Virus record (IMG/VR): IMGVR_UViG_3300021960_000309
Location: 1 to 32,091 of that record
Length of the DNA stretch: 32,091 nt
Reading direction: 5' to 3' (one strand)
Source of the DNA: a virus
Below the pieces are notes generated by a model, which was not told the DNA's origin, did no database searches, and worked only from the letters and a program-made list of their open reading frames with translations. Of this stretch, positions 808 through 30,300 are shown in pieces. The position numbers and the translations under genes are program-made. Within the stretch, counting starts at the first letter, position 1. Each line of letters opens with the position of its first letter.

Positions 808-3800
808 TCAAGCGATTCGTTCTGCTTCACTACGGGTTGCAGGCTCTATGTCCTGCGTTTCTTCGTCTTCATCCTTTTTTGGGATGCGTAAAACCGCTTT
901 GTCACCCTCAACCGTCAATTGAGCAGGAGTCCCGCCTGTCAATTCGGGATCCACTGTGAGGCTCAATGAAGGAAATTCATCCATGGTTTCTTCCTCATCG
1001 TCTTCTTTTGGTTGCCCAAAGGTTGTGTTTTGTTCCTCCATGAGTTGAGTTGGCCCTCTTGGAGAAGTGGTGTCGGCCTGCATTCCCGACCATGCTCCAC
1101 CATCGGGGGATGCGCGATTCATCCGTGGATAAGCAAACCTTTCGATGATGTCATCATCAATTGCTTCATTGACAGTCCACTTGCCTTCCTCTTCCTCTAT
1201 GCCGTATTCGTTGCCGAAATTCTCAAGCATTTTTGGAGTCAAACCTTTGACACTGTCACACAATTCTTCTGTTGTCATTGACTTTTCTTCTCGTCGGATA
1301 AAGCGGCGAACATGATCCATGATGTGATTTACATCTCCTCGCTTTTCTTCATCTCCAATAACAGCAGGTGCTTTGATTGTTGCTGTTTTATCGGTCTTTC
1401 GTTTCTTAGGCCTCCTGCCTATGCCCCCACTATAAACAGGATTGAATGTGCCTGGCGTAGCACTGGTGACCGCTTCTTTCAGCAGTGAGAAAGCAACGGG
1501 TGACCAAAGCGGAGCCTGCCTCTCGGCGTGTTTGATGAGAGATGGCAGGTCGCTCTCGACCGAGGAGACTTTGAAGGTAAGGCCGTCCATTGTCCCCTTG
1601 ATGACGACAGGAGAAAGGATGGATGGGTATTCAAGAACAACTTCTGTTCCCGACTTTGCTGTGATTTGAGGAAGCGGCGGGTATTGTTTCTTGACATCCT
1701 TTGAAGCATAGCGAATCCACTTGGGGTGGACTTCACGACCTTTGATGAAAGTTGAACGGGAATCCCGAATCAGCATTTCACAATCTCCCTCCTGCAACTT
1801 GTGAACAGTCTTCACCAGCCCTTCATTATCCGATGAGGAGAAATTTTGAGGCATTGGGAATGTCAAATGCTCCGTTGAATCGTAAAGAGTCCGTAGGGCA
1901 TTCATTCGGTCTTCAAGTGGTTCATGGGACAAATCCATTCCCTTGTGAAGCAACAAATCAATGACATGAAGCATGTCTCCATCGTGATAGGCATCAAAGG
2001 AAACATCCCCGCTCAACTGCTTCAAGTCTTTCTTGATTTTTGATGATAGCGACATTGGATTTACGCGCTTCCCCTTTTTTTCAACGAGAACACGCTTGCC
2101 CATGGGCTTCTTTTGCACGATCCATTCTCCACTGAAACCCTTCAACGAATGAATGTCGTCAAGGTCATATACCGTATGAGCAGGTTCAATCATGATTTTT
2201 CCAAAGACCCCTGTTGGTTCATAGTCGTCGGATTTGTTCAAGTCACCCGAAATCAAATGGGAATAACCTTGGGGAGAAGTTGCGCTCATGGCGTAAATGT
2301 CTCTTTGCTTTGGCAACAATTCTTCGGACATCATCGAAGGTAAAGGAATGTGTTTCTCGTGGACTGTGCGTTGCATTGTTGTGAATGGCGTTTCTTTGTT
2401 GTCAAAACGAATGGTATTTGATTGAGGGTCAAAACGCCATGCGAGAGTTGCAGGCATCTCGTGTCCCCAAGCATCATTATTCCCGTTCACATAAACAGGG
2501 GGCATCACCGATTCAGCAAAAGGAGAAAGCCCCTGCGTGGACATTCCACCCTTTCTAATCGCAAGGTGGTTTGCCGCCGCCGCAATCTGCTGAAGGTTGC
2601 CTCGTGCAATTGTGGAGGATTGAGGGTCGGTTCCAGTGACGATTTGAGGCCCGAATTGTTGCATGACTTGACTGGTCAAGCGCATAATCATCTCGCCCAA
2701 CTCCATGTCCGTTTTCTTGAAATGTTCATTATGAGCATCCCAATAATCATGCGTAGATGCGGGGTGTTCTTCACGATAAATGCCTCTCCTCGGATTCCCA
2801 ACATCAGTGTGTGATTGAATAGCCCTTCCTAAAGGAGTCATCAAAAGAGCATCCGAAGGCACTTGCATACGGCCTCCGACACCTTGAATCTCGCTTGGGT
2901 GCAAATACGCATGGTTAGAAACCGCAGACCAATTGCCACGCTTTCGTGTATAAGAATCGGAATTTATTCCCCCCGTCAAGTGAGGCATAGGGGAGGCAGG
3001 AAAGTGGCTGTTGTGATGTTGTGATTGCTTCATCATCTCGAAAACAGAATCCAACAGCATAGTCCCCACATGTCCTTCAAAGGCTTGAGGGTAAGAATCA
3101 GTCATCAGTTGCCGAAGTGAGTCTGTTCCACGACCAACTCCCCCCCAATGAAGAAACGGTTCCCACCAATGATAATTCAGTGATTTGTTGCCCTCCATAT
3201 CCCACGGAGAATGATAGTGTTCGTCGATGCCGCCAAATTTTGAAGAAGAAGTTGCACCGTGGCGATCAGCAGGGCGCATCCACCATTCTACCATCGGGGT
3301 AAAACGAGAACGCCAAGAGCGCAAAGCCCGTCCCCATGAGATGCCAGCCTTCTCTTGAAATTTGTTTTCAATTGCCTTATGTTCGGGAGAATTGGGTTGA
3401 GTTGACCCCATTTGACTCAATAAATCGCCAAAAGCGGCTCTTTGTTCGGGGGTGTTCCATTCCAAGCCGAAGAGGTATGATAGCATTCCAAACGAGGACA
3501 TAAATTCTGCCCTCTTCTCCTCCAACCATTCATTCTCGTCTTGAAAAGCACTGCGGTTACGGTCTTTTTTGTAAAGGTCAATCATGCTTTCGTTTGGCTT
3601 TCCGTAGCCCTGCACAGTCTCATAACCATGGATTCGCTTTTCCTGTTCGGCCATTTCCTTCAACAACAAAGCCGAGTCAATCAAGTGATGTGCATATTCG
3701 GGTTCACCATGCTGGCCGCCATGAAGCAAAGGGCAACATCCCGATTTCAATGACAGGGGATGGTGTGTGCCATACGCATTCTCCGCATCAGCCATCGGCC

Positions 3801-4065
3801 AATCATCCATCATGTTTGTTGATACCTTTCCATGACCTGCAAGAAACGGTGAACCGATTTGCATTTGTGAAACAGGCATTGGTGAATTCAAATCCCGCAT
3901 TCGATACGGGCTTTCGCTTGGTGGAGCAATCATTGTAGAAAGAGCCATGTCAAAGAGGCTCCCCTGCTTTTGCACGAGCGACAGGTATTCGGAATGGTCA
4001 ATTTCATGTCCATTCAAAAATCCGAGGACGGAATCGGTTCGTGAACGCAGAAGGTCTTCTGTCAT
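808..4065 (-). CDS. Large structural-module protein with a DNA-ligase/nucleotidyltransferase-like core
   Basis: This is a 1085-residue protein lying just before the prohead protease. About residues 640-800 resemble the adenylation domain of ATP-dependent DNA ligases or mRNA capping enzymes. There is a motif I-like K-P-M-G-K-R with candidate nucleophile Lys653 (the usual KxDGxR with D changed to M), an FDAYHDGD...HVIDLL segment like motifs III/IIIa, EGLVKT (Glu748, Lys752) like motif IV, and a WIRY (Trp783) motif V-like end. The first ~600 residues are unrecognised and rich in His, Met and Pro. About residues 930-990 could be a small winged-helix, and the tail is acidic and disordered. It could be an active ligase carried in or on the virion, or a dead domain reused structurally. 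ATG 4065 follows a GGGAG ribosome binding site. The gene is certain; the domain call is moderate. Confidence 0.75.
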   Translation of the reverse strand: MTEDLLRSRTDSVLGFLNGHEIDHSEYLSLVQKQGSLFDMALSTMIAPPSESPYRMRDLNSPMPVSQMQIGSPFLAGHGKVSTNMMDDWPMADAENAYGTHHPLSLKSGCCPLLHGGQHGEPEYAHHLIDSALLLKEMAEQEKRIHGYETVQGYGKPNESMIDLYKKDRNRSAFQDENEWLEEKRAEFMSSFGMLSYLFGLEWNTPEQRAAFGDLLSQMGSTQPNSPEHKAIENKFQEKAGISWGRALRSWRSRFTPMVEWWMRPADRHGATSSSKFGGIDEHYHSPWDMEGNKSLNYHWWEPFLHWGGVGRGTDSLRQLMTDSYPQAFEGHVGTMLLDSVFEMMKQSQHHNSHFPASPMPHLTGGINSDSYTRKRGNWSAVSNHAYLHPSEIQGVGGRMQVPSDALLMTPLGRAIQSHTDVGNPRRGIYREEHPASTHDYWDAHNEHFKKTDMELGEMIMRLTSQVMQQFGPQIVTGTDPQSSTIARGNLQQIAAAANHLAIRKGGMSTQGLSPFAESVMPPVYVNGNNDAWGHEMPATLAWRFDPQSNTIRFDNKETPFTTMQRTVHEKHIPLPSMMSEELLPKQRDIYAMSATSPQGYSHLISGDLNKSDDYEPTGVFGKIMIEPAHTVYDLDDIHSLKGFSGEWIVQKKPMGKRVLVEKKGKRVNPMSLSSKIKKDLKQLSGDVSFDAYHDGDMLHVIDLLLHKGMDLSHEPLEDRMNALRTLYDSTEHLTFPMPQNFSSSDNEGLVKTVHKLQEGDCEMLIRDSRSTFIKGREVHPKWIRYASKDVKKQYPPLPQITAKSGTEVVLEYPSILSPVVIKGTMDGLTFKVSSVESDLPSLIKHAERQAPLWSPVAFSLLKEAVTSATPGTFNPVYSGGIGRRPKKRKTDKTATIKAPAVIGDEEKRGDVNHIMDHVRRFIRREEKSMTTEELCDSVKGLTPKMLENFGNEYGIEEEEGKWTVNEAIDDDIIERFAYPRMNRASPDGGAWSGMQADTTSPRGPTQLMEEQNTTFGQPKEDDEEETMDEFPSLSLTVDPELTGGTPAQLTVEGDKAVLRIPKKDEDEETQDIEPATRSEAERIA

Positions 4066-4078
4066 TTATTCTCCCCCC

Positions 4079-4879
4079 TCATAGGCGAGAATAAACCTGT
4101 TCAAGCAGTGAAGTGATTTCTTCTGCGATCCCCATTTGTCCAACGCCGATTGACTTTTTCAATGAAGAGAGAGAATCCTCAATGGGTGCGAGATTCGGCA
4201 AGTTGCCACTGTTCCCTCCATCATTCAAGTGCATGTGCAAAGAAGAAGCCGAGGCATCATACCCTGTTTGAGCAACGGATGGCATTTTGAAAACCTCATT
4301 CACTGTTGTTTTTGAGGGGCCATCGGTGAATTGAGGAACACGATGATTGGTTGAATAAACCGTAGCACGAGTCGGTTCACCACCTGCGACATCCATGAAT
4401 TGAGGAACCCCGTTTTGGAGGTTGCCTTCCACTTCGTATTTCACGATGCCCATGTCGGAAAGGATTTGAGAAGTGGTGTCAAAACCCTTTTTGGTATCTT
4501 TTGCGTTAATGCAGTGAGGGGGACAAGATGTGCTTCCACGGTGCATTGAAGGAGAGGAACCACCGCCAATTCCTCCAAGTGCCTGTGCAACTTTGCATCG
4601 GCCACAAAGGGTCTTTTCGTCCTCTTCTTTTTTCAATTCATTTTTTTTGCATTTATCACAAGGTTCTTTGCCGAAGCGAACATGTGGGCATCCTTTCGTG
4701 TTGGCTTCGATGGCTTCTCCGACCTTACGCTCCCAACTGCTGATTTCGCCGTCTTTGTTACGGTCGGCTTTGCTCTCGTCCAACTTGTCTTCACCCTTGA
4801 GTTGCTTTTCAAGAGCAAGCACTTGAGCGAGCAAACGCCCTTCATGAGATTCCTTCATTGGGTCAAACCACTGTGGCAT
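4079..4879 (-). CDS. Hypothetical protein with EF-hand-like loop and cysteine knuckles
   Basis: This 266-residue protein is not assigned to a family. Near residues 38-51 it has DRNKDGEISSWE, a canonical EF-hand/dockerin-type calcium loop (D-x-N-x-D-G-x-I-x-x-x-E). Cysteine pairs follow, one CxxC near residue 74-78 and another (CGRC) near 92-95, which could bind zinc. The rest is Gly/Ser-rich with a short helical C-terminus. Its start overlaps the stop of the upstream gene (TAATG), with GGTGA seven bases before the ATG. Position between portal-linked small genes and the prohead protease suggests a head, neck or scaffold role, but this is inference from context only. Confidence 0.7.
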   Translation of the reverse strand: MPQWFDPMKESHEGRLLAQVLALEKQLKGEDKLDESKADRNKDGEISSWERKVGEAIEANTKGCPHVRFGKEPCDKCKKNELKKEEDEKTLCGRCKVAQALGGIGGGSSPSMHRGSTSCPPHCINAKDTKKGFDTTSQILSDMGIVKYEVEGNLQNGVPQFMDVAGGEPTRATVYSTNHRVPQFTDGPSKTTVNEVFKMPSVAQTGYDASASSLHMHLNDGGNSGNLPNLAPIEDSLSSLKKSIGVGQMGIAEEITSLLEQVYSRL

Positions 4880-6031: not shown

Positions 6032-7804
6032 TCATGCGCCACGGTCGTTCAAGCCTTTTCGTTTTAAGGCCTCATTGATTCGATGTTCAGCCATCCTTTC
6101 TTCGGGAGATTCAAAACGCCGTTTATCGGTTTTTTTGTCCGTCCCTGCGGCCATTCCTTCGTTTCGTTGAACATGAGTTGGTGACTGTCCTGCGCTGTTG
6201 CGCTCTTTGTCGCTGTTATCGCTAATCGACCTCAAGGGTGGAATATCCGAACCTTGAACGCCCACCAGCGAATCGGCAAGGGGCATAGAACCTCGGCTTT
6301 GCCTCAAATCCCTGTCTCCCTTTTGCACCTGTTCTCCGCCGCCTGTGCCTTGCTGTGCCGCCTGCGCCTCCTGCTGTTGCTGTGCGATTTCTTCATCCGA
6401 TGGCTGGCGGAAGTCAAAGTGGAGGATTTCATCGTCTATACCGTCGCGCAGGTTTGCTTCAAAGCCAGCCTGTTTCATTTGAATCATGTTTCGGATTGCC
6501 ATCTCATCCCGTCGCATGTTCATGATTTCGTCCTCTTCCTCATGCGGGTTCAAGCGCAAGTGCCATTCGGTGATTGAAAACGCCTCCATCAACACGGGGA
6601 ACAAAACCCGATTGAAGATTGACTGTGCGTATGAAATTGAACGGTTGCTCACAACGATTTGCATTCCTTCGTTGTTCAAACCACCGCCCGATACATCATT
6701 CATGAACACATTTGACACGCCATAAAACGCCGAAATGCGCTGGCGAATATCGTCTTTCATCGGGATGTATTGTAACTCTTCCAAAGTGTCCATCATTCGG
6801 ACATATTCAATACCGCCACGACCCGACTCGGTTTCTACACCAATTGTCGGAATGTAATTCGGGTCACGCTCAAGGTGTTCTTGGATGTTCCTTGCAGTGC
6901 GCTCCACAGTCTCAAGGTTGGATGATTTGATGACCATCACGCCTCGTGGCATTCTTCGCTTTTGATACGCAGAATAAACATAATTGTCCATGGCTATGAG
7001 CGTATTCACCTGTCGCCACATCGTCGCAACAGGACTACGGCCATACAACTTCGACGGCGACCATTTGCTCAAATGAACGACTTCTCCCTCGGTATAGACC
7101 TGTCCTTTGCCAACACCCGCCAAATTCATGAAATGAATCGGGACGACAGGCATACCCGTCTTTGGACACTTCTCATCCTTATCGCTGGTTCGGAATGAAC
7201 GGTCAACAAGGCTGGTGTATTGGCTCCCTCCACGCACACCCCGCTTATCCGCCAAAATCCGCATGAAAATTGGGTCTGCCCTGCTAATTTCTTTGATGCG
7301 GAAGAACATAGGCTTCTTGGTTTTGGGATCGACATAATACTCCTTGGTCAAAACAATGTAAGCATCATCCACGATGTCCAAGTCCATTTCAATTTCACGA
7401 AGAACCTCCAAGAAGTCTTGTTGCATTGAATTCTTTGCACCCATGAGAGCATCGGCGTATTCGATTTGAGAACGGTCGGCCTTGCGAACACCACCGCCAC
7501 ATTTCGTGCAAGTCTCAACCTGTTGCTGATATTCTTCATCACATTCAAGACATTTCACGACGAATTTCGGCTTCCAGCCCCACCCCTTACGGAATGTTTC
7601 AACATTCAAATGATTGAGAATTGAGCGCAACACGAGACATTCATACGCCGCCGCATAGAGAGCGGGGATGGTGATGCCTTGAAGCAAAGGTGGCTCTTGG
7701 ATGCCTGTTTGAAACAAAGGCATGGTTGGCATCGGGGTTGAATGCCGTTCCATGTCAACTCCAATAGAGGAGAAAAGGCGGTCGATGCGTTTTTTATCCG
7801 CCAT
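6032..7804 (-). CDS. Portal protein with zinc-ribbon insertion
   Basis: This 590-residue protein forms the dodecameric ring at one head vertex through which DNA is packed and released. Support comes from its place after the large terminase and from portal-like segments: a helical stretch around LVLRSILNHLNVETFRKG, a wing region reading YGRSPVATMWRQVNTLIAMDNYVY, and the conserved late segment RISAFYGVSNVFMNDVSGGG leading to LNNEG. An insertion near the start has four cysteines (Cys85, 88, 99, 102, CxxC-N10-CxxC), typical of a zinc ribbon and not usual in portals. The last ~120 residues are Gln-rich and disordered. ATG 7804 overlaps the upstream TAA and follows a GGGGATGA site. The fold assignment is strong; the exact portal family is uncertain. 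Confidence 0.85.
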   Translation of the reverse strand: MADKKRIDRLFSSIGVDMERHSTPMPTMPLFQTGIQEPPLLQGITIPALYAAAYECLVLRSILNHLNVETFRKGWGWKPKFVVKCLECDEEYQQQVETCTKCGGGVRKADRSQIEYADALMGAKNSMQQDFLEVLREIEMDLDIVDDAYIVLTKEYYVDPKTKKPMFFRIKEISRADPIFMRILADKRGVRGGSQYTSLVDRSFRTSDKDEKCPKTGMPVVPIHFMNLAGVGKGQVYTEGEVVHLSKWSPSKLYGRSPVATMWRQVNTLIAMDNYVYSAYQKRRMPRGVMVIKSSNLETVERTARNIQEHLERDPNYIPTIGVETESGRGGIEYVRMMDTLEELQYIPMKDDIRQRISAFYGVSNVFMNDVSGGGLNNEGMQIVVSNRSISYAQSIFNRVLFPVLMEAFSITEWHLRLNPHEEEDEIMNMRRDEMAIRNMIQMKQAGFEANLRDGIDDEILHFDFRQPSDEEIAQQQQEAQAAQQGTGGGEQVQKGDRDLRQSRGSMPLADSLVGVQGSDIPPLRSISDNSDKERNSAGQSPTHVQRNEGMAAGTDKKTDKRRFESPEERMAEHRINEALKRKGLNDRGA

Positions 7805-9048
7805 TATTCATCCCCCAACACTTCGTTGATTAAATCCTCTTGTGTCATTTTCCACTTTTTGAGCAGACTCACCTGCTTCGCAGGAACGGAATTTTGATAC
7901 GCAAACAATTGAATGGCTCGCTCATCACCCTTGATCGCTTTTTGGATAACTGTTGAAGCGGCTCGCTTTTCTTTGAGGAAATCATGGGCCATTTCACACG
8001 CCTTCAACACAGCCCTGTCCCCCATAAATACGATTGAGGAGCCTTCAGCCTTGACAGCACTGACAGACATGACACCTTTCAATGTTTCCACATAATTCGT
8101 TGCGTTGACCGATGAGAAAGGAAGAACCAAGCGAGGGACACCTCGCGAATCAACTTCTAATCGCCCATCTGCTTCCCAAAGGGAACCGATGAAACGACCA
8201 CTGTTTTTGATGATGGCGGAGCCACGATTCATATCGTAGAATAAACCTCGCTGATTTGATTTTGTTCCTTTGCCTGCAACTTCAATGTCAAACAACCAAC
8301 CATGGCTTTTGATGAGGTTTGCCAACTTCGGAGCCGTAGAGGGGACTCCGCTTTCAATAAGTCCCTTTGCATCCATCAAGCCATTCTTCATCAAAAGTTG
8401 CGAGGCTTCGGCAAGAATGGCTGATTCACGGGATGAGATGCGCTCCGATTTGTTGACCATCTGCGACCATAGGCTGTAAGCGTCTTCTCTCTCTTCATCC
8501 GTTTGTGATTCTCGCCAAGACTTCAAGAAACGACGAAACGGCAGACTCAACCGTTCTATGCGCTTATTCAAAATCGAATAGTCGGAATCGTTCAACGGCA
8601 ACTCATCATACAGTGCCTCGCTTGAGAAGTGTTTCAATATCGCCTTGTGTTCTGCGGCGATCAATGGGGCCATCAAGGTCAATGCTTCGTTGCCTAAATC
8701 GCTTTGAGATTTTTTCAACACATCAATGATTTCATCACTGGACATGCCGAAATTCTCAACAAACCATGAGCGGGTGATGTCTCGCCCATCAAGGGATGCG
8801 CCAGGTTGCGTATCGGGGGCAAGTGTGCTTTCGGGAGAATCAAGCCCTTGAATGTCGCCTTCTTCAGCAATACGCTTCAAGTCCTTTTCTGCTTGTTGCT
8901 GTTGTTCCTTCTGCTTCTGTTGTTCCTTGGCATTTTCCAATTCACGCTCTTTTTGCTCAACCACTGGGTCATCTATTTTGGGAAGAATCTTTAACAACAC
9001 ATCCTCGAAGGTTTCAACTCCGAATTGATATTTGATTTCTTTAAGCAT
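7804..9048 (-). CDS. Unknown conserved-position protein between large terminase and portal
   Basis: This 414-residue protein begins (about residues 30-65) with a Glu/Gln/Lys-rich helix, QKERELENAKEQQKQKEQQQ, that would form a coiled coil. A long all-helical region follows, then a compact mixed region (about 250-330) with GWLFDIEVAGKGTKSNQRG and GSLWEADGRLEVDSRGVP strands. ATG 9048 overlaps the terminase stop by eight bases and has GGTGG just upstream; a TTG at 9087 would need a longer overlap. No enzyme motif was found. Genes at this site in tailed viruses often encode head-completion or portal-associated proteins, so a head role is inferred only. Confidence 0.7.
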   Translation of the reverse strand: MLKEIKYQFGVETFEDVLLKILPKIDDPVVEQKERELENAKEQQKQKEQQQQAEKDLKRIAEEGDIQGLDSPESTLAPDTQPGASLDGRDITRSWFVENFGMSSDEIIDVLKKSQSDLGNEALTLMAPLIAAEHKAILKHFSSEALYDELPLNDSDYSILNKRIERLSLPFRRFLKSWRESQTDEEREDAYSLWSQMVNKSERISSRESAILAEASQLLMKNGLMDAKGLIESGVPSTAPKLANLIKSHGWLFDIEVAGKGTKSNQRGLFYDMNRGSAIIKNSGRFIGSLWEADGRLEVDSRGVPRLVLPFSSVNATNYVETLKGVMSVSAVKAEGSSIVFMGDRAVLKACEMAHDFLKEKRAASTVIQKAIKGDERAIQLFAYQNSVPAKQVSLLKKWKMTQEDLINEVLGDE

Positions 9049-10453
9049 CAGCCCACCCCAACCGCTTCTGCCAAGTCTCGGCATCAAGAATCAAAATGTT
9101 GTCTCGGAATTCCTTTGTTGCTTGGACTGAAAGAGCCAAGGCCATAACCATGTCATCATGACCACCAAGGCTTTCCATGCGCCCATTATCCAACATGGTG
9201 AAGGTGGACAACTCGTTTATGAGGGTGTTCATGTGGCGGTGAGTTGCCCCTTCGTCTTTGAAAGGAAGAGACAAATGGTTGCGCTCAAAGTGCAACTGCA
9301 AAGTGTGAATCAGTGCCTCCTTCTTCATTCGGGTGGTGTTGAAGGGTTTGATAGGAAGGTCGCTGATTTCAGCCAGCACTTGATTGAAAGCCATAGCGAA
9401 GTTGTTTGTTTCCAACTCAATGATAACTGGGTTGAATCGTGCGTTCAACTCAATGATTTTCTCAATCTGTGCGCTGAAATCCATACCCTTCTCGTGATGC
9501 ACATGCACGATTCGCTTATGTTTCTTCTCATCCATCCCAATAACCAACATGCAGGTATAGTCGGCTTTCCTGTTTGCACTGATAGCAGGATCCCACCCGA
9601 TGTAATAGGACAACTCTTCATCGGCTTGAGGATAATATGACAGGGCCAATGAGTCGTCTTTGGCGTTTTCAATCACTTCTTCGGGGAACAAACTTGCTTC
9701 ACTGGCTATCGGTTTGCACAGGTATTCACGGGTGAAAGCAATCGAAGTCATTTCACTTCGTCGTGTTTTCAGTGCTTCCAATGACCACCTTTCGGGCCAT
9801 AGTGGATCGCCTGTTCGCTCATTGATTGCGGGGTATTCGTTGACGCAATACCCGTCCAACTTCTTCAACTCGGAATAAAGGTCGGTGTAGGAGAACGGCG
9901 TTCCAACGATGCACAGTTGCGCTGTGTGGTGGAGAACGGGGAGAAGGGCGGTGTAAAACCATGTTGAGATTGACTTCAACTGGGTGGGTGCTTCGCTTGA
10001 AAGGATGTCGTCAAGAACCACAATTTGAGGGTGCGCCCCACGAACAGCCTTACCAACGGACATGGCCCGTATAGATGATTTGTTGGTCATTTTGAACAAC
10101 TGCTTGGCCCATCCCCTCGGCGGCTTCAAATGAGCCAAAGCAGGGGTCGTCATAATCAACTCGTCCATTTTTGCCATGTGGTCAATTGACTGGTGCTGGC
10201 TGTGCGAGAAGAACAAAACTTCAGTGCCAGGATTGTAAGCCATTTTCCATAGGAGATAGCATCGAAAGAACACGGATTTGCCGTGGTCACGACTGGCTAT
10301 CACGCAGGTTTTGGTGTGGCCTTCTGCATTGTTATACCATTCTTTGTGAAATTCGGCCAGTTGAAATCCGCAGATGTCCTCAAAGAAAAATTGAAAATTG
10401 CGACGGCCCATCTCAAAATCAACCTTTGAGGCGACTTCGTTTAGGCCCGACAT
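9041..10453 (-). CDS. terL: Terminase large subunit (DNA-packaging ATPase and nuclease)
   Basis: This 470-residue motor pumps genomic DNA into the prohead and cuts it. The ATPase half shows a Walker A-like SRDHGKS (residues 54-60), a Walker B IVVLDD ending at Asp148-Asp149, and a coupling CIVGTPF segment (about 181-187). The RNase H-fold nuclease half has the three expected acidic sites: Asp288 in GWDPAIS, Glu346/348 in IIELETN, and Asp433-Asp434 in GGHDDMVMA. Walker B ends in D-D where D-E is usual. Length is typical of the family. ATG 10453 follows a strong GAGGTGA site. This is the most secure functional call in the window and marks the region as tailed-virus DNA. Confidence 0.96.
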   Translation of the reverse strand: MSGLNEVASKVDFEMGRRNFQFFFEDICGFQLAEFHKEWYNNAEGHTKTCVIASRDHGKSVFFRCYLLWKMAYNPGTEVLFFSHSQHQSIDHMAKMDELIMTTPALAHLKPPRGWAKQLFKMTNKSSIRAMSVGKAVRGAHPQIVVLDDILSSEAPTQLKSISTWFYTALLPVLHHTAQLCIVGTPFSYTDLYSELKKLDGYCVNEYPAINERTGDPLWPERWSLEALKTRRSEMTSIAFTREYLCKPIASEASLFPEEVIENAKDDSLALSYYPQADEELSYYIGWDPAISANRKADYTCMLVIGMDEKKHKRIVHVHHEKGMDFSAQIEKIIELNARFNPVIIELETNNFAMAFNQVLAEISDLPIKPFNTTRMKKEALIHTLQLHFERNHLSLPFKDEGATHRHMNTLINELSTFTMLDNGRMESLGGHDDMVMALALSVQATKEFRDNILILDAETWQKRLGWADA

Positions 10454-10462
10454 TCATTCACC

Positions 10463-13120
10463 TCAAATCACAAACGGTTCGGGTTCTTCATCATCTACGG
10501 GTATGCGAGGTGCTAAGAGATAACGCAATTCATTCATAAGGCCTTCAAAATCACCTTCGGGTTCACCATGTTCTGTTGTTTCAACGCGTAATTGCAGTGG
10601 AGCCGCACCACCTTTGGGTGTTTGCATAAGGTCAAGAATTGCAGGATTGTCTTTGAAGTCTTTCAAATTCGGAATGATTTTGAGGTATTCTTGGTCGTAA
10701 ATGCTGTCGGGGGCCTCCTCAAAAGCAATATCGGATTTGTCCTTTGGAGCATTCTTGAGCCGTTCCATCAATTCCTTTATGCTGGTTTCGATTGAAGGGC
10801 CGCCCAAATCAGTGAATTCGGGTGGCATCATCACAGGAATGCGGTGGCGGGTTCCTGTTGGTTCTCCCATTTCATTTGCCACTGAAACTGTTTGTCCTGT
10901 GGCTCCGAAAGAGTCAAGGAGGTTTGCATTCACCATGAATTTTCCTTTACCGTCCATAAAGGGCAATTCCCAAACCGCATCTCCCTGTCCTGCTCTCGCA
11001 ACAGGCATCATCTCACCATTGATTTCGGCCAAAAGTGCTTCTTGTGGATTTAGCGTGTCGGAATTTGTTCCTTCACGAATAAAGCGTGGTGCGTCAAATG
11101 ACCTCAATTTCGGAATCCCCATTCCATCAAGAAGCGAGGGGATTTTTGGAGACACAACCCTCTTAGCACCTTTTCGATAACGCCCTAAACCCTGTCTCTT
11201 CGCAGAAGCCTCCAAGTCCTTGATTGGGAATTCGTCGCCCGAAAAACCAGTGCCAGTGAAGACTTCATCACCAATGTTTGCGGTCAAAGGAGGAAATGGT
11301 TCTTTGCCTTGTCCGAGATACCGAAATCCTGCCGAATAACCCCCAGTCATGGGAAATCTCCTCGGCCCTTGACGATTTTTGCTCATCTCTATGAGAGGCG
11401 AGAGATTCATTGGGACTCCGATCATCCCCCTAAGATCCCCAGTCTTTACCGATTGAGGAGCAACAGTCATCATGCCCACATGGTCGCTCGAAATCGCCGT
11501 TCCCGCCGCAGGCCGACCTTCACGGTTTGTCAAAAATAATCCCGAATCGTTCACCAAACCCATAGCCAAGAGGTCTTTTATGCTCAATGCTTTGTTCAAT
11601 GGATAACCCTTTTTTGCGAGATTATGTCCCAAAGGAGAATCCTTTACAGGAACCTTTAGACTCGTTTTGTTTTCATCGGTTTTTTTTTCGGCATTGTTGT
11701 CCTTCTTGGGAGGATTGGCTTTTCCTTGCAGTGCCGCCGCAACTGCTCCCGTAGCAGGGTTGCCCGACTTCTTTTCTTTTGCAGGTTTCTCATCGGCAGG
11801 CTTACCAATATCGGCGGCCACCGTTTTCGCCTCTTTGGGTGATTTCTTCGACTTTGGCAGGTCATCAGTTGGAGACTTTTCCTCGGCCTGCGGTGCGGCC
11901 TTCTTCGGCGTAGCCTTCTTCGGTGCGGCCTCCTTTTTTGGTGGAGCCTTATTGCGCCCCCCCACCTCTCGAAGTGTTGCCCGACCATCCCTGTCCTTTG
12001 GCCCCCATTCGTGGGTTCCAGCACGAACCAAATTGAACGCTCTTATCCCTTCTACGAATTTATCACCCACTCTTACACGCATGGCCTTGGGGCTTTCTCC
12101 TTCGGGTGAATCGTAAAAACCGCTATCGTCCTTCTTTGGTTCGGACTTTGGTTCCTCCTTCATCGGAGCGACCGCTTCTTGCACTGCTGGCACTTTGGAT
12201 GCAGGCTTTAATTCGGGCGTAGGTTCGGGCGTAGTTTCGGGCGTAGGTTCGGGCGTAGGTTCGGGTGGTCGAATAGATTCCTCAATGGCTTTCCAACCTG
12301 CTTCACCTGCTTCGTCCGACAAAGGTTCTTCATCGGGTTCGGGAAGTGACATAAACGATGATGGTTCTTCATCAGTGGTTGGTTCGGGCATAGCAGTGAA
12401 GTCTGTTGCATCGACTCTTTGCTTGGTTTTCGCAGACCCCATTTCATCGTTTGTAGGGTCATTCACGCCATCGGCCATGTCGATCATCTGCTCAACCTTT
12501 TCAGTCGAAACATCAGTTGGAGAAGGCGTTGCTTGATAGTCCCTAAAGAACCGATTCATGCGCTCTTGAAGTGATGGGCCACTGGTGGGCATAGGTCGCG
12601 CCCTTTCATCCTTCATAGGCGAGGGGGCAGGTCGTGGAGGAATACGCTCTCCTGTTAGGTTGTAAGGCACTTCGCCTCCGAGGATTGCGCTTGCTTCTTC
12701 TTGACTCATTGGTTCTTCGCCTGTCACTCCAAGTGCTTCAAAAGCGTTATGCAGGGAGGACATCGGTTCAAAGGTGCTTCCTTGAAATTTGGGTTCGGGG
12801 GGTTGTTCTTGACGAGGAGGGCTTGAGACTGTCCTTCTTCGGACGGGTTTTCTACGAGGTTTTGTCTCTTCTGTTTTTTCGTTGCGTAGTTTTTCAGCCA
12901 ACGCCGCCATTGATTCGTTCTCATTCCTCACCCACTGTTCCCTGCGTTTTTCTCTCCGACTCATTCCTGCATCGGAAGGCAAATCCGCTACAACTCTTTG
13001 TAGCCGCTCGTTGCGTTCTCGTGCTTGGTCGAAACGCTCATTCCTGCGGCGTTGTCGGCCTTCACGAAACCCCTTTTCCACGGCATGTTCCCATGCTTGG
13101 TCAAATTCAACGGAGGCCAC
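10463..13120 (-). CDS. Large partly disordered virion-module protein with FDxAW N-terminus
   Basis: This 885-residue protein starts at GTG 13120 with GAGGTG upstream. Its first residues read ASVEFDQAWEHAVEKG, which resembles the FDxAWxLLK tag of the accessory array at 24152-31805. Residues ~15-90 are very basic and helical. Residues ~95-470 are low complexity: a Pro-Thr-Glu repeat (about 285-305) and a Lys-Ala-Pro histone-like stretch (about 385-460). From ~490 to the end the protein looks folded, with Gly/Pro-rich strands and an acidic C-terminus. No enzyme motif was seen. It overlaps the upstream gene by 14 bases and directly precedes the large terminase. A DNA-binding internal head protein is possible, but that is inference from charge and position. 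Confidence 0.75.
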   Translation of the reverse strand: MASVEFDQAWEHAVEKGFREGRQRRRNERFDQARERNERLQRVVADLPSDAGMSRREKRREQWVRNENESMAALAEKLRNEKTEETKPRRKPVRRRTVSSPPRQEQPPEPKFQGSTFEPMSSLHNAFEALGVTGEEPMSQEEASAILGGEVPYNLTGERIPPRPAPSPMKDERARPMPTSGPSLQERMNRFFRDYQATPSPTDVSTEKVEQMIDMADGVNDPTNDEMGSAKTKQRVDATDFTAMPEPTTDEEPSSFMSLPEPDEEPLSDEAGEAGWKAIEESIRPPEPTPEPTPETTPEPTPELKPASKVPAVQEAVAPMKEEPKSEPKKDDSGFYDSPEGESPKAMRVRVGDKFVEGIRAFNLVRAGTHEWGPKDRDGRATLREVGGRNKAPPKKEAAPKKATPKKAAPQAEEKSPTDDLPKSKKSPKEAKTVAADIGKPADEKPAKEKKSGNPATGAVAAALQGKANPPKKDNNAEKKTDENKTSLKVPVKDSPLGHNLAKKGYPLNKALSIKDLLAMGLVNDSGLFLTNREGRPAAGTAISSDHVGMMTVAPQSVKTGDLRGMIGVPMNLSPLIEMSKNRQGPRRFPMTGGYSAGFRYLGQGKEPFPPLTANIGDEVFTGTGFSGDEFPIKDLEASAKRQGLGRYRKGAKRVVSPKIPSLLDGMGIPKLRSFDAPRFIREGTNSDTLNPQEALLAEINGEMMPVARAGQGDAVWELPFMDGKGKFMVNANLLDSFGATGQTVSVANEMGEPTGTRHRIPVMMPPEFTDLGGPSIETSIKELMERLKNAPKDKSDIAFEEAPDSIYDQEYLKIIPNLKDFKDNPAILDLMQTPKGGAAPLQLRVETTEHGEPEGDFEGLMNELRYLLAPRIPVDDEEPEPFVI
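12211..12268. repeat. 12-bp tandem repeat coding for Glu-Pro-Thr-Pro units
   Basis: About five copies of a 12-bp unit (ggttcgggcgta on the plus strand, with small changes) lie inside the 885-residue protein gene. They encode alternating EPTP units, a stiff, extended linker. In-frame repeats like this change length easily by slippage, so copy number may vary between related viruses. Confidence 0.85.
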
Positions 13121-14144
13121 GACGAAGCACCTCGGTTGTGTTTCTCGCTTGAATTGCCTTTCGGATGGTTAGCATCTCATGAAGTGCATCACGATCCATT
13201 GATTTCTCCGTTCTCAAACGCTCCAAATCTTTTCGCCCTTGGTTTCGCTGATACATGTTGTAACCTGCGGCGGCGATATTTCCAAGCCCTCCTGTCAAAG
13301 CGGCGACTATGGGATTTGTTGCCAATCCCCCCTTTGTGTTTGCTCTTTTGCTTGCTTCAGCAACAGAAGCGAGGTAAGCAGGGTCTTGGATCTTTGCAGG
13401 TGCGGCTGTTTGTCCTTGCTGTGCTGGTTGTTGTCCCTGCTGTGCTGGTGGTGCGGCGGGAGCAGGTGCGGCAGGTGCAGGTGCAGGTGCGGCAGGTGCA
13501 GGTGCAGGTGCGGCAGGTGGAGGCAAAGGAACCCTCTCCTGCTCCTGCGGGGATGAAGCAGGCAGGGGAACAGGATTGGGGTCAGTGCCAGTCCCCGAAG
13601 CACTTGCGGGTGCGGCAGGTGCGGCGGGTGCGGCAGGTGCGGGGGGAGGCGTATTCGTCAAACCCATGGCCGCCGCCTGTTCAGCATTTGGCGCACCAGC
13701 AGGAACGGCAGGCCCCGAAGGTGCGGCAGGGCCGCCCATTGGCTTAATTGGAGTCAACTTTGGGAGGCGCGCTTGCATAGCATCCAGCGTTTGTTCCTCT
13801 TGTTGGAGGTTATGTTGAGCCGCTTCCTGTGGAGTCATGCCTTGAGGAGTCTTTGATGGGTCGGTGATTGCCGTTAAATTGGGATTTGAGGCTGTCCTTT
13901 CCATAAGTGCCTGTTGATTGTCACTTATCCTTTGTTGTCGGGCATCCTGTCTTTCTTGCCTGTTAGCGGCTTTAAGCCCTCTATCTGCTGTTCGGCGGTT
14001 TGCTTTCGTGTCTCGAACAAATTGCCTCCCATAACGCATATTGGCAACGCCAGGAATAAGGTCGGTTTTTCTCCCAGTGCCAGTCATGATTTTTTGTAAG
14101 TCATCATTGGCTTGGAGGCGCGCTTTCAAAGTTAAATCATCCAT
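13107..14144 (-). CDS. Pro/Ala-rich hypothetical protein
   Basis: This 345-residue protein has three parts: a basic helical N-terminus (1-80, ending in an Arg/Gln-rich helix), a long Pro-Ala and Pro-Gln linker (about 130-255, made of APAPAPA-type units), and a C-terminal region with a Gly/Ala-rich, membrane-like stretch (NPIVAALTGGLGNIAAAGY, about 275-295) followed by a charged helix. It overlaps both neighbours by 8 and 14 bases, so translation is probably coupled. A Pro-Ala linker tethering two folded ends, with a hydrophobic segment near one end, would suit an internal or ejected virion protein, but no homologue was recognised. Confidence 0.7.
   Translation of the reverse strand: MDDLTLKARLQANDDLQKIMTGTGRKTDLIPGVANMRYGRQFVRDTKANRRTADRGLKAANRQERQDARQQRISDNQQALMERTASNPNLTAITDPSKTPQGMTPQEAAQHNLQQEEQTLDAMQARLPKLTPIKPMGGPAAPSGPAVPAGAPNAEQAAAMGLTNTPPPAPAAPAAPAAPASASGTGTDPNPVPLPASSPQEQERVPLPPPAAPAPAPAAPAPAPAAPAPAAPPAQQGQQPAQQGQTAAPAKIQDPAYLASVAEASKRANTKGGLATNPIVAALTGGLGNIAAAGYNMYQRNQGRKDLERLRTEKSMDRDALHEMLTIRKAIQARNTTEVLRRGLR
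13464..13520. repeat. 21-bp tandem repeat coding for Pro-Ala units
   Basis: A GC-rich repeat with 21-bp period (ggtgcggcaggtgcaggtgca and close variants) encodes the APAPAPA linker of the Pro/Ala-rich protein. A shorter related patch lies at about 13608-13646. Both keep the reading frame. Confidence 0.8.
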
Positions 14145-17869: not shown

Positions 17870-18573
17870 TCAAGAACACCTGCCCTTGCTAATGCCGCCC
17901 TCATCTCTCTCCATTCTTCGGGGGCCTTTTGTGAGAACACATCCTGCAAAACGCCAATGATTGAAACCGACTGTTTCTTGTCAACATCGGCGGTCTTCTC
18001 AATCCATTTTGCTAAGTCTCCCAATGTTTCACGGACTTCACGATGCAGTTTAATTGCCGTGTCCATTTCTCGGATGTCAAAGTCTCTTTCCTCGTCGGCC
18101 ATGTCGTTTTCCAACTTGTCCATCACCAATCCAAGAAACCGATCCAAACGATTCATGTTGTTCTCAATACGAATCAAGGTGTCCTGCGCTGATGAAATCG
18201 CTTTGGGCATCACTTCAACTGAAACCTCTTTTTGGATAATCGGATTGATATGCCGTTCCATGTGGGTTTGAATGAGGCTTTCGGGCATGTCCATTTCAAC
18301 AGCGAAGTCTTGGATTCCTGCTGTTCCATTCAAAATGGCCTCTTCGATGAGGCTTCTGTCTGTATGGGTGCAAAGAGGACAGGACGAGTTGCTGTTGTTG
18401 TGATATTCCCCTGCATGTCGTCGCATGTGCCGATGTGATGTGCCTTCAGCCCACCCCTGTTCCTTATCCAACACTTGAACCGAAATGGCTCCTGTGTTGA
18501 TTTGTTGCTCTAACAAATCTCTTTCGGGGTGCTGACAAAAGAAGCAATTCTTTCGTGACTGCCGCCCCCCCAT
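17866..18573 (-). CDS. Tandem zinc-finger protein, candidate terminase small subunit
   Basis: This 235-residue protein contains two copies of a CxxC-N35-HxxxH module with identical spacing: Cys10, Cys13, His49, His53 and Cys65, Cys68, His104, His108. Within each, the cysteines are followed by a similar helix (HPERDLLEQQINTG and HTDRSLIEEAILNG). This layout is common in DNA-binding proteins encoded near terminases. Residues ~135-200 form a long coiled coil ending in RETLGDLAKWI, which would suit oligomerisation. A small terminase recognises the viral packaging site and hands DNA to the large subunit. The gene lies upstream of the large terminase in the same operon, but with four large genes in between. 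The zinc fingers are clear; the small-terminase role is likely but unproven. Confidence 0.72.
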   Translation of the reverse strand: MGGRQSRKNCFFCQHPERDLLEQQINTGAISVQVLDKEQGWAEGTSHRHMRRHAGEYHNNSNSSCPLCTHTDRSLIEEAILNGTAGIQDFAVEMDMPESLIQTHMERHINPIIQKEVSVEVMPKAISSAQDTLIRIENNMNRLDRFLGLVMDKLENDMADEERDFDIREMDTAIKLHREVRETLGDLAKWIEKTADVDKKQSVSIIGVLQDVFSQKAPEEWREMRAALARAGVLE

Positions 18574-18592
18574 GTGTTAAAACGATGTGCTT

Positions 18593-18784
18593 TCACTTTT
18601 TATGGGTATGGGTGTTGCAGAATTCTGTTCCCTTGACAGGGTATTGTTTGCATGGGTCACCTTTCTTTGTAGTCCCCTTGCATTTTTTTCGTTTGACAAT
18701 GTTTTTTACATCATCAAGATCGAAGTCTCCGTCACCATCAGTGTCAAACCTTCTCAACAGTGGAGAATAAACAAGTGGGCTTCT
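18593..18784 (-). CDS. EF-hand plus CxxxH mini-protein
   Basis: This short protein (63 residues from GTG 18784) has an EF-hand-like loop FDTDGDGDFDLDDV, a Lys/Arg helix, and a C-terminal CKG..KKGDPCK...FCNTH pattern that resembles small zinc-binding domains of the GxPC...G..CxxH kind. The start is uncertain. There is no in-frame ATG. GTG 18784 has GGTGG upstream and lies after the neighbour's stop, whereas TTG 18874 would overlap that gene by 65 bases. The function is unknown; calcium and zinc binding are inferred from the motifs. Confidence 0.6.
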   Translation of the reverse strand, partial: RSPLVYSPLLRRFDTDGDGDFDLDDVKNIVKRKKCKGTTKKGDPCKQYPVKGTEFCNTHTHKK

Positions 18785-18809
18785 CACGCCCCCGCCACCA
18801 GCGAGGGAG

Positions 18810-19055
18810 TTACCGAAAGGAAGCGTATTGTCGAACCGCAACCATGAAGGTGAAAAAGAGGCCGAAAATGCCAAACATCAATTCATTATTGGTGAGACTT
18901 GACCCTTCACTGATGAGAAGAGTAAAACAACACAGGAAAAACGAGATGATGAAAATCATAGTTGCCGACTCAACCAGCATTTTGCTTGGGGACATGAATT
19001 CAACGCCCATATCGTATGGGTTGAATGTGCCACTGTCTTTGTCATTTTGTTGCAT
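18810..19055 (-). CDS. Small membrane protein with two transmembrane segments
   Basis: This 81-residue protein has two hydrophobic helices (about residues 33-49, MIFIISFFLCCFTLLI, and 60-75, LMFGIFGLFFTFMVAV) joined by a short polar loop. The N-terminus is polar and the C-terminus short and basic. ATG 19055 is preceded by a GGGGG stretch at workable spacing. Size and topology fit holin-like or other small viral membrane proteins, but lysis genes were not found next to it, so no role is assigned. Confidence 0.65.
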   Translation of the reverse strand: MQQNDKDSGTFNPYDMGVEFMSPSKMLVESATMIFIISFFLCCFTLLISEGSSLTNNELMFGIFGLFFTFMVAVRQYASFR

Positions 19056-19058
19056 CAA

Positions 19059-19669
<611 letters not shown>

Positions 19670-19673
<4 letters not shown>

Positions 19674-20608
19674 ATCGCCTCATTGTTTATGTTTTGCTGT
19701 TGTTGAATTTGCATCATTTGTTGCATTCGATTTTCCGCCGTTTCTGTTTGTAGAATTCGTAAATCAAAAGAAACAGTGACGATGTCAACAACCCCGCTTA
19801 TTGGGTTCTCATATTGATTGACTTTAACACCTTTGCTATGCGAGGCATCCTGCTGAATCATTTTGAAAAACGGTTCATATTTCTGAATTGATTCGGCGGT
19901 GCTACGATTTTTTGGGGAACGGAATCCATTGGTCAAGCCATTGATTCCTGGCACTTTCATGAATTTGGTTCCTTTGCTCACAGGCTTAACGAAAAATCCT
20001 TCTTTCTCCATTTCGTGTTCCTGCAACAAAGACTTGAGCGTGTGGAAAATGTGCAAATGAGCAGGGCAATAAGTTGACTTCAATTCGTCGCCGTGATCGC
20101 CATGGGTTCGTGCAAAAGGCTTCCGAGGCTTTCCCGTTTCTTCATCGAACCAATAAATGTCGGCCAAGGACAGTCCTGTTTTCTCATCAGTCAAGTGTGC
20201 GTATGCGTTGTCCCCTTCAAGAAAGCGGCGCACATCAACGCCACAGCAGGCACATTCATGACCTGCATTGTAGCGATAAACCTTGAACAAACCCAAGTTA
20301 TAACTTGGTGGCCGCAGTGCCTTTCGCAGAATTTTGATGTTCTGCTTACGAGCCTTGACTGGATTTTTGGGGTTCGTCTTCAATTTGACCTCGACAGTGG
20401 GGATGATTGCCTCGTCGCTGTCAATTCCTTGTGAGCCAGCACTCGCCATTTCAGCGCGTTGCTGTGCTTTCAAGAATTCATAAGCAATCCCCGTGTTGAG
20501 GGAAAGTTGCCTCAACTGGTCGTCCGACAACCCGCTAAGAGACATCCTGCCGCCCATGAACGGCATGTTGGGCATGAAGGCCATCAACCCTCCCATGTTT
20601 GACAACAT
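19670..20608 (-). CDS. Cys/His-rich hypothetical protein
   Basis: This 312-residue protein starts at ATG 20608 with GAGGAG eight bases upstream; the longer frame would need a TTG. After a Met-rich start and a helical region it has a putative metal site: HECACCG near residues 118-124 pairs with THGDHGDE and YCPAHLHIFH near 170-195. The segment after it (KGTKFMKVPGINGLTNGF) is mixed, followed by a strand-rich VVDIVTVSFDLRIL and a Gln-rich tail. No enzyme family was recognised. It lies directly after the GTPase gene, so the two may act together. Confidence 0.68.
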
Positions 20609-20624
20609 GATAAACTCTCCTCTT

Positions 20625-21356
20625 TCACATTGAGTCAATCAAATGAAGGAAAGTGTCCTCCACATTGATTCCTCTTTGGGCCGACACTGGATGCACTTCG
20701 GCCCGAAAACCAGCCTTTCTCAAACACTTCAAGCCGTTTCGGAAGTGAGCGACGATTCGATGTTCCCGAAGCAGACCATAATGGTGCAGTTGACGCGCCT
20801 CCTCATCCCACCAATTGTCCATTTTGTTTATCATCAAACAAATGACTTTGGGGCGGTATTTCTTCACATTCTTGCGCGCCTTACGAGAAATCTGCTTTGA
20901 AATTTCTTTTTTGGTGATGTTGTTCACGAGATATTCAAAACCAGCAACCGCTTCCACCAAAAATTGAGGGGAATTCAATACCCTGTCGTCGATCATATAA
21001 ACCACGACTTCTACATCTCGTGCGAACATGTCTTCCACCCACATATTCTTGAATTGGGATTGGCCCGCAATATCACTGCTAATAACGGATTTTTTCTCAT
21101 TCTTCCACTTGATTTGCTTTCGTGTTGCTCGTGGCATTTCATGACCGACCACACTGTTGTTTTTGTGATGGGAAGTGCGAAACAAATCGGGAATTGGTTC
21201 AATGTCGCCTGGCACTGTGAGGTATTGGTCAAGGGTGGTCTTTCCCGTTTTGCTTGGGCCATAAATGCCAATCCGAAACGGCTTGATGATACGATACAGT
21301 GAATAAAACGCCGAGGCCGAAGCCATCAGCATGTGTCCCGCTATGAGAGTTGACAC
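20625..21356 (-). CDS. Ras/Arf-superfamily-like small GTPase
   Basis: This 243-residue P-loop GTPase has all the main nucleotide motifs: G1 GPSKTGKT (33-40), G3 DIAGQ (95-99), G4 NKMD (177-180) and a G5 VSAQRG (224-229). The G3 motif has the Gln used for hydrolysis in Ras and Arf proteins. Such proteins switch between GTP and GDP states to control transport, polarity or assembly. GTG 21356 is the start because GAGGTG sits seven bases upstream and overlaps the neighbour's stop. The N-terminus before the P-loop is weakly hydrophobic. Between G3 and G4 there is a long Lys/Arg-rich helix (EISKQISRKARKNVKKYR) that ordinary small GTPases lack. It sits among small membrane proteins, so a membrane-linked role is plausible. 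The GTPase fold is strongly supported; the partner is unknown. Confidence 0.88.
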   Translation of the reverse strand: MSTLIAGHMLMASASAFYSLYRIIKPFRIGIYGPSKTGKTTLDQYLTVPGDIEPIPDLFRTSHHKNNSVVGHEMPRATRKQIKWKNEKKSVISSDIAGQSQFKNMWVEDMFARDVEVVVYMIDDRVLNSPQFLVEAVAGFEYLVNNITKKEISKQISRKARKNVKKYRPKVICLMINKMDNWWDEEARQLHHYGLLREHRIVAHFRNGLKCLRKAGFRAEVHPVSAQRGINVEDTFLHLIDSM

Positions 21357-21363
21357 ACGATGC

Positions 21364-21369
21364 CACCTC
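21364..21369 (-). promoter_or_regulatory. Ribosome binding site deciding the GTPase GTG start
   Basis: GAGGTG on the minus strand ends seven bases before GTG 21356. It overlaps the TGA of the upstream membrane-protein gene. No equally good site serves the downstream in-frame ATG codons (21332, 21326). Confidence 0.75.
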
Positions 21370-21589
21370 AAACATGACTCATGAGCCAGTCCCAAATTTC
21401 AGTCGGGGTGATGCCGAAGAAATCAAGGCCCACGAATATGCCAAAAGTGAAAATAATTCCAAGAAACAAAGCAACAAATGTGCGAACCCAACCTGCCACG
21501 CGCTCCATTTTGCGCTCATAAGCGTTTTCCGCCAAGACTTGTGACATGGCGTTTGCTTGACGCTCATTTTGAGTTGTGAAAGGCCACAT
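21368..21589 (-). CDS. Small single-pass membrane protein
   Basis: This 73-residue protein has a polar, Gln/Arg-containing N-terminal helix and one hydrophobic segment (about residues 37-56, FVALFLGIIFTFGIFVGLDF) with a short C-terminal WDWLMSHV. ATG 21589 lies just after a GGTGAGGTG region. It directly precedes the GTPase and might recruit it to the membrane, which is inference from adjacency. Confidence 0.65.
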   Translation of the reverse strand: MWPFTTQNERQANAMSQVLAENAYERKMERVAGWVRTFVALFLGIIFTFGIFVGLDFFGITPTEIWDWLMSHV

Positions 21590-21603
21590 CACACCTCACC
21601 TAT

Positions 21604-22077
21604 TCACTCTTTGTCGTTCTTTTCGTTTGAAGGTTGCCCTTGATAAAGTCCAAAGGTTTGCGCCCCATTTGGAGGCACATTTTGGTATTGCTGGTTCCAC
21701 ATCTGCTGTTTCTGCATCCGTCGCTGTTGTAGGCGCATTTGAGAGCGATACCACTTTTCGGCTTGATTCTCACGAGAGAATTCGGCTCGCATAGCGAGAC
21801 TGTCTCGAACACCCCCTACATGGAACAAAACCATGGAGGCGCACAGGAAGCCAAAGCAAATCAGCCCGTATTGGAGTCCTTTTGTTGCTGGCGTTGCGGA
21901 TTCAAGGTATATGCCTTTTGAAGCGATATATACGCCCGTTCCCACCAAAAGTGATTGCCATAGCAACATAGCGATCAAGTTGACATCAATTCGGTTATTG
22001 TCTTCGCCCATGTGCGGAGGCATCATGGGCTGGAACATCATTTGTTGTTGTTTTTCTCTTTCATCATTGGGCGACAT
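21604..22077 (-). CDS. Membrane protein with two transmembrane segments
   Basis: This 157-residue protein has a disordered, Met/Gln-rich N-terminus, two hydrophobic helices (about residues 35-53, NLIAMLLWQSLLVGTGVYI, and 67-85, YGLICFGFLCASMVLFHVG) and a long Arg/Gln-rich cytoplasm-type tail with a helical RLQQRRMQKQQMW stretch. ATG 22077 is preceded by GGAGG nine bases upstream and overlaps the end of the ribbon-helix-helix gene by 14 bases. No family was recognised. It begins the small-membrane-protein/GTPase cluster. Confidence 0.68.
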   Translation of the reverse strand: MSPNDEREKQQQMMFQPMMPPHMGEDNNRIDVNLIAMLLWQSLLVGTGVYIASKGIYLESATPATKGLQYGLICFGFLCASMVLFHVGGVRDSLAMRAEFSRENQAEKWYRSQMRLQQRRMQKQQMWNQQYQNVPPNGAQTFGLYQGQPSNEKNDKE

Positions 22078-22213
22078 TGTTTTTCCCCTCCTTGTTTCGG
22101 AAATAGGACTCAAGCACATAATTCATGAAAGAGGACTTCGATTCACGCCCTCTTTCCCGTTCCATTTTTTGAAACAAGTCGTCTTTCATGACGACCGAAA
22201 CATGCTTTGCCAT
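22064..22213 (-). CDS. Ribbon-helix-helix transcriptional regulator (49 residues)
   Basis: This short gene encodes a 49-residue protein whose first 40 residues fit the ribbon-helix-helix fold of Arc, CopG and MetJ. A beta strand (KHVSVVMKDD) is followed by helix A (LFQKMERERG) and helix B (SKSSFMNYVLESYF), and the loop between the helices carries the usual small polar residues. Dimers of this fold bind palindromic DNA through the strand. Start ATG 22213 is seven bases from a TGTGA-N4-TCACA palindrome. It is divergent from the only plus-strand gene and overlaps the start of the next minus-strand gene, so it probably represses its own operon and perhaps the divergent gene. Confidence 0.78.
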   Translation of the reverse strand: MAKHVSVVMKDDLFQKMERERGRESKSSFMNYVLESYFRNKEGKNNVAQ

Positions 22214-23990: not shown

Positions 23991-24155
23991 TCAATCGCCC
24001 TTCCTCAATCCGTTCCAGCACTGTTCCTGCAACTCGTCGTTGTCGTGCCAAATCACCACATCCTTTCCGATGTCTTCCATCATGAACCACATGAAAACAA
24101 AACCTTCGATGAAGGCGATAATGAACAGCAGGGTGAGCATGATGGAGAGCGTCAC
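23991..24155 (-). CDS. 54-residue single-pass membrane protein
   Basis: This short gene starts at GTG 24155 in a four-base GTGA overlap with the upstream metalloprotease-like gene and is preceded by GGAGAGG. The first 26 residues are hydrophobic (LSIMLTLLFIIAFIEGFVF and onward), followed by an acidic, Trp-containing C-terminal half (VVIWHDNDELQEQCWNG). It ends one base before the next gene. The precise packing supports a real gene. A role as holin-like or membrane-anchor protein is possible but unproven. Confidence 0.65.
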   Translation of the reverse strand: MTLSIMLTLLFIIAFIEGFVFMWFMMEDIGKDVVIWHDNDELQEQCWNGLRKGD

Positions 24156-24679
24156 AAATACCCTCTCCTTCTCAAAACCTCTTTGTGGTCTTTGAAAGGA
24201 ATTCCTTCCATCAACAAAGCCCCCACTTCTCTTTGTAATAGAGGGGGGGGTGAAAAATAATCGCCTAATTCACCTGTGAAAAACGCCCTATGTCTTTCTT
24301 GATCCAACAGTGGTTCAATCATTCCATGACCTTGTTCATGCAGAAGGGTTTTGATTGCTTGTTGCATCATTTGTTCTTCCGACATCGGCTCCATCCCATA
24401 ATGCCTTTTACCGTAATGCCGATCTTTTTCTTCGTCGTATTTCCTCTCAACGCGAAAATCGTTGTATTTGAACATTGGATGAGCCAAATTCACCCCCATG
24501 AAATACCTATCACCGAAGGCTTTTGCGGCAACAGGGGTTCGTTTTACCCTATGGTTTCGATGACTTACATTCGCTCTTTCGGGGACTCCACTTGATAAGT
24601 CGGTCATCCACCCCGCCCCCCCGCCAGGGTCAAGGTAAAATGCCTTCACCAAATCCCAAGCGTCATCAAAAGCAGTCAC
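24152..24679 (-). CDS. Tagged HEXXH metalloprotease-like protein
   Basis: This 175-residue protein begins with the shared tag (MTAFDDAWDLVK). It carries a zincin-type HEQGH motif (His114, Glu115, His118) inside a helix (AIKTLLHEQGHGMIEPL), and an acidic residue in QREVGALLMEG about 35 residues later could be the third zinc ligand. Zincins cut proteins using a zinc ion held by these residues; the family length here is small. GTG 24679 overlaps the upstream stop (GTGA) and has GAGGG seven bases upstream. The protease call rests on the motif in the right helical context, and the target is unknown. Confidence 0.7.
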   Translation of the reverse strand: MTAFDDAWDLVKAFYLDPGGGAGWMTDLSSGVPERANVSHRNHRVKRTPVAAKAFGDRYFMGVNLAHPMFKYNDFRVERKYDEEKDRHYGKRHYGMEPMSEEQMMQQAIKTLLHEQGHGMIEPLLDQERHRAFFTGELGDYFSPPPLLQREVGALLMEGIPFKDHKEVLRRRGYL

Positions 24680-27109: not shown

Positions 27110-27207
27110 TTTTTCCACCTCGCACGATAATAACACGGCCAGCACAAGCCCTCATTGGGGTGTAGTGGCTCACGCTGGCGGCATTTTTTACATTGTTTGG
27201 ACTTCAT
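27106..27207 (-). CDS. 33-residue zinc-ribbon mini-protein
   Basis: This very short gene fills the gap between two tagged genes with four-base ATGA overlaps at both ends. The product, starting MKSKQCKKC, has Cys6, Cys9, Cys22 and Cys25, a classic CxxC-N12-CxxC zinc ribbon, and a basic tail RARWKK. The exact coupling at both ends and the intact metal motif support a real gene despite the size. It lacks the shared tag. Confidence 0.66.
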   Translation of the reverse strand: MKSKQCKKCRQREPLHPNEGLCWPCYYRARWKK

Positions 27208-27734: not shown

Positions 27735-27740
27735 TTTCTT

Positions 27741-27746
27741 CACCTC
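27741..27746 (-). promoter_or_regulatory. Ribosome binding site deciding a TTG start
   Basis: GAGGTG six bases before TTG 27734 matches the site and spacing found before other genes of the array (for example 27116-27121 before ATG 27109). Confidence 0.7.
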
Positions 27747-30288: not shown

Positions 30289-30294
30289 TTTTTC

Positions 30295-30300
30295 CACCTC
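30295..30300 (-). promoter_or_regulatory. Ribosome binding site deciding a GTG start
   Basis: GAGGTG six bases before GTG 30288, same spacing as other array genes. It argues against the GTG at 30297, which overlaps the site. Confidence 0.7.

Follow-up and report, generated by a model that had tools for sequence, protein, structure and literature searches.

The window analysed here is the whole 32,091-nucleotide stretch of the linear virus record IMGVR_UViG_3300021960_000309. On its minus strand lie, in order, the terminase large subunit (9041 to 10453; Pfam Terminase_6C, 3.1e-10), a 427-aa protein, the portal protein (6032 to 7804; Pfam Phage_portal, 1.4e-9), several small genes, an open reading frame (ORF) of 1085 aa (4065 to 808), and an S78 prohead protease (3 to 830; Pfam, 3.1e-10) that is truncated by the end of the window. 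The major capsid protein follows in relatives such as the contig L001. Searches of viral contigs retrieved about 100 loci with the same gene between portal and protease, and in the lineage of the window (clade A) homologues of the 1085-aa protein lie directly upstream of the prohead protease in 95 of 101 loci. One homologous contig of 106 kb (L114) belongs to a Poseidoniales single-cell assembly, which supports a Marine Group II host for clade A. The minus strand of the window also carries a gene for a Ras-like small GTPase (20625 to 21395), which is found in clade B (see below) as well (positions 16246 to 16911 of contig L115).

The 1085-aa protein is composed of a large N-terminal domain, a ligase-derived domain, and a C-terminal part. 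The N-terminal domain (residues 1 to 611; 2233 to 4065, minus strand) is conserved and mostly helical, and although it was modelled with good confidence (pLDDT 84.8, pTM 0.86), no match was found in the PDB or BFVD at an E value of ≤0.001 or in Pfam. The ligase-derived domain spans residues 612 to 863 (1477 to 2232, minus strand), with a well-modelled core at residues ~614 to 790. The full-length protein matches Pfam DNA_ligase_A_M at an E value of only 0.039, but the excised domain matches at 0.0012, and 17 of 19 aligned relatives match the same family. The AlphaFold model of residues 614 to 868, built on 19 sequences, has a mean pLDDT of 78.7. Its top matches in the PDB are exclusively ATP-dependent DNA ligases, both by Foldseek (E value of 1e-6) and by VIA-align, where all of the top 50 rows are ligases (Z score of 14.7, RMSD of 3.3 Å over 165 residues). 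This match covers residues ~614 to 792, showing that the domain has the predicted fold of a ligase adenylation (nucleotidyltransferase) domain. Beyond residue ~790 the model is of medium confidence (pTM 0.60) and contains strands, but PF04679, the family of the OB-fold domain that follows the adenylation domain in ligases, was not matched.

A sequence-only reading of this DNA had proposed a ligase- or capping-type nucleotidyltransferase core in this protein, with motifs I, III/IIIa, IV, and V in the order found in ligases and the Asp of KxDG changed to Met. The observation itself is confirmed, as K653-PMGKR, FDAYHDGD...IDLL, and W783-IRY are present as described, with the exception of one motif assignment. 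Motif I is degenerate (K652-KPMGKR-658; 2092 to 2112, minus strand), with K653 at the position of the nucleophile and M655 in place of the Asp. Motif III is degenerate as well (residues 689 to 693, SFDAY; 1987 to 2001, minus strand), with Tyr in place of the catalytic Glu, whereas the Asp of motif IIIa is kept (residues 700 to 705, HVIDLL; 1951 to 1968, minus strand). The stretch E748-GLVKT (1807 to 1824, minus strand), which had been taken for motif IV, falls at the start of a helix of the model and is not motif IV. The true motif IV is EMLIRD at residues 763 to 768 (1762 to 1779, minus strand), which aligns with the EGVVIKD of intact relatives. In motif V (residues 782 to 787, KWIRYA; 1705 to 1722, minus strand), both lysines are replaced.

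In 70 distinct domains from clades A and C, the nucleophile position is occupied by K in 44, M in 20, W in 2, V in 2, R in 1, and Q in 1. The Asp of KxDG is kept in 2 of 70, the motif III Glu in none, the motif IV Glu in one, the first motif V lysine in one, and the second in none. Clade C includes a 1933-aa version of the head protein (contig L032, positions 8075 to 13873) with KWYDGKR at motif I, which also lacks the catalytic residues of motifs III, IV, and V. The domain therefore looks catalytically dead, although this is inferred from sequence. Conservation of the candidate lysine had been named beforehand as a criterion, and it does not hold. The interpretation of the sequence-only reading is partly supported, in that a ligase-type domain in a head-module protein and the loss of activity with structural reuse, offered as an alternative, are supported, whereas a nick-sealing enzyme is not. 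Although Lys653 itself is present in the window protein, an active ligase is very improbable given these losses. It is also unlikely that the domain retains nucleotide binding or nucleotidyl transfer by other residues. The Asp of motifs III and IIIa, the Gly of motif I, the Arg of motif IV, and the Trp of motif V stay conserved, which suggests a maintained site, but no invariant lysine remains at the nucleophile position or at the neighboring positions 652 and 657. Despite the loss of these residues, 47 pairs of clade A sequences gave a median dN/dS of 0.049 for the domain, lower than for the rest of the protein (0.066 and 0.101). This indicates a pseudoenzyme that is maintained for another purpose and not a decaying relic.

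One distant hit, on the contig L115, carries a complete set of ligase motifs (EKYDGIR, LDAEL, VFDI, EGVVIKD, and KWIKFK) and matches DNA_ligase_A_M at 4.9e-31 and the Archaeoglobus ligase 3gde at 2e-17. A search with this sequence returned 80 viral loci, defining a second viral clade (clade B), in which all 66 distinct domains keep every catalytic residue examined. In clade B the gene also lies directly before the prohead protease (78 of 81 loci), and the terminase, portal, protease, and capsid protein are homologous to those of clade A. The contig L115 is binned as Maricaulis, but this bin holds several such contigs and is probably chimeric, so it does not identify the host of clade B. Family B DNA polymerase appears split into two genes in many clade B viruses (e.g., record G018:C1, positions 1972 to 4379).

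Profile-profile comparison of clades A and B with hhalign gave a probability of 99.7 and an E value of 3e-25 over 165 columns for the ligase domain and nothing for the N- and C-terminal parts. A degenerate phosphoesterase-like domain suspected by eye at the C terminus of clade B was not supported by Pfam. In a tree with 22 archaeal cellular ligases and 9 stand-alone ligases of clade B viruses, the head-module copies of clades A, B, and C form a single group (100/100), and A plus C form one as well (100/100). The locus L203, initially labelled head type, falls with cellular ligases on a very long branch and was not counted. The tree is subject to long branches and does not resolve whether A/C arose inside B, but because clade B and the outgroups are intact, secondary loss of catalysis in the A/C line is the simplest reading. 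Eleven of 12 long clade B records also hold a separate, stand-alone ligase of 508 to 537 aa, whereas 12 clade A records of 74 to 107 kb, not known to be complete, hold no other PF01068 or NAD-dependent ligase. Some Poseidoniales genomes hold short, divergent ligase-like proteins of 427 to 463 aa (loci L207 to L210).

Among sequenced phages, with the named magrovirus genomes ON649702, OR863078, and PP497040 outside the comparison, tblastn found no homologue of either head protein. The portal of halovirus HVTV-1 is related (28%), but profiles of the clade A and B proteins found nothing in the 25 kb around it. In HVTV-1 the region between portal and protease also holds a very large protein, annotated as zeta toxin (L196, positions 18201 to 22142).

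The ligase-derived domain of the window is directly preceded by L609-N-K611 (2233 to 2241, minus strand), followed by S612, which is a predicted prohead protease site. In all 67 clade A sequences, the domain is preceded by [LI]xK followed by S or A, with 11 residue types at x. The capsid protein carries DLLK followed by A or S in 62 of 62 clade A sequences and LLK in clade B, the motif lying near its N terminus. The protease carries (I/L)LK followed by S near its N terminus (FLLK followed by S in the window, a site conserved in clade A) and, in clade A, EIQK followed by S near its C terminus. In clade B, the 40 residues before the ligase hold such a site in 58 of 68 sequences, against 10.9 in shuffled linkers. 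By analogy with known prohead proteases, such as that of SPN3US, which cuts after AXE (PMC7411985), [LI]xK followed by S or A is inferred to be the cleavage motif. The motif alone is not proof, since LxK followed by A also occurs inside the folded core of the protease. A possible second site after the domain (L861-L-K863; 1477 to 1485, minus strand) is weakly supported, being present in many but not all clade A members and usually followed by E, Y, or M. Alternatively, the domain may be a purely structural part of an uncleaved head protein, with LxK as a structural helix end. The fusion is indeed always a single ORF in clade A, and LxK motifs occur in uncleaved protein cores. This is nevertheless considered unlikely, because the site is invariant in its P3, P1, and P1' classes while P2 varies, as in a protease motif, and because the same motif lies near the N termini of the capsid protein and protease, where processing is expected.

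The LxK motif also gives a way to predict which other proteins are processed and packaged. Twelve small ORFs of the window (24152 to 31805, minus strand) share the N-terminal peptide AF[DN]xAWxL[LMV]K, which ends in this motif and is followed by unrelated sequence. By eye some of these look like GNAT or ADP-ribosyltransferase folds, but Pfam gave no clear match for the ten scanned. The peptide is possibly a capsid-targeting tag on packaged cargo.

Taken together, the window protein is best read, with moderate confidence, as a head protein of a Poseidoniales (Marine Group II) tailed virus with a domain descended from an ATP-dependent DNA ligase. Sequence and model establish that the domain has the adenylation fold, that it has lost residues for lysine adenylylation and metal binding, that it is under strong purifying selection, and that the same slot in a related viral clade holds an intact ligase of the same origin. 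That this is a ligase-derived, catalytically dead domain in a head-module protein is very likely. What remains inference is that the S78 protease cuts after K611 during head maturation and frees the domain from the N-terminal part, which is probable, and that the domain now works as a noncatalytic internal head protein, probably using the old nucleotide/DNA-binding surface to contact packaged DNA or other core proteins. A further possibility, less likely than not, is that clade B viruses package a working ligase, cut out of a head polyprotein by the prohead protease, that would seal nicks or join genome ends during packaging or on entry. In this view the lineage of the window has turned the packaged ligase into a noncatalytic internal head protein. 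Papers on magroviruses report a DNA ligase among replication genes (PMC10160649, PMC10768690, and PMC12999244), whereas no description of a ligase domain in a virus head module was found in the literature searched, which left out most subscription papers. The two sister clades offer a natural comparison of enzyme against structural reuse, and they point to the idea of a DNA-sealing enzyme carried in the capsid of abundant marine archaeal viruses.

The predicted processing recalls the internal head proteins of T4 (IPI to IPIII and Alt), in which an N-terminal capsid targeting sequence is cut by the prohead protease gp21 (PMC7411985), in that it would leave an enzyme-derived domain inside the head, in the window as the product of a gene in the head module next to portal and protease. 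The proteins are not homologous, the predicted motif is [LI]xK followed by S or A instead of the T4 type, and the putative site is internal to a large protein. The closest matches in structure and sequence are archaeal and eukaryotic ATP-dependent DNA ligases of the LIG1 type (PF01068; e.g., Archaeoglobus fulgidus 3gde, Thermococcus sibiricus 4eq5, and human LIG1), which share the adenylation-domain fold and motif order. The window family differs from these by the loss of catalytic residues, by the absence of a detectable PF04675 DNA-binding domain, by its embedding in a head-module protein, and by its separate clade in the tree. The head-module ligases of clade B (loci L115 to L195, from uncharacterized viral contigs) share with the window protein the slot directly before the prohead protease, the homologous ligase domain, and the LxK motif in the linker, but they retain all catalytic residues and an OB-like region, a part that is modelled with lower confidence in the window protein, and their N- and C-terminal parts are unrelated.
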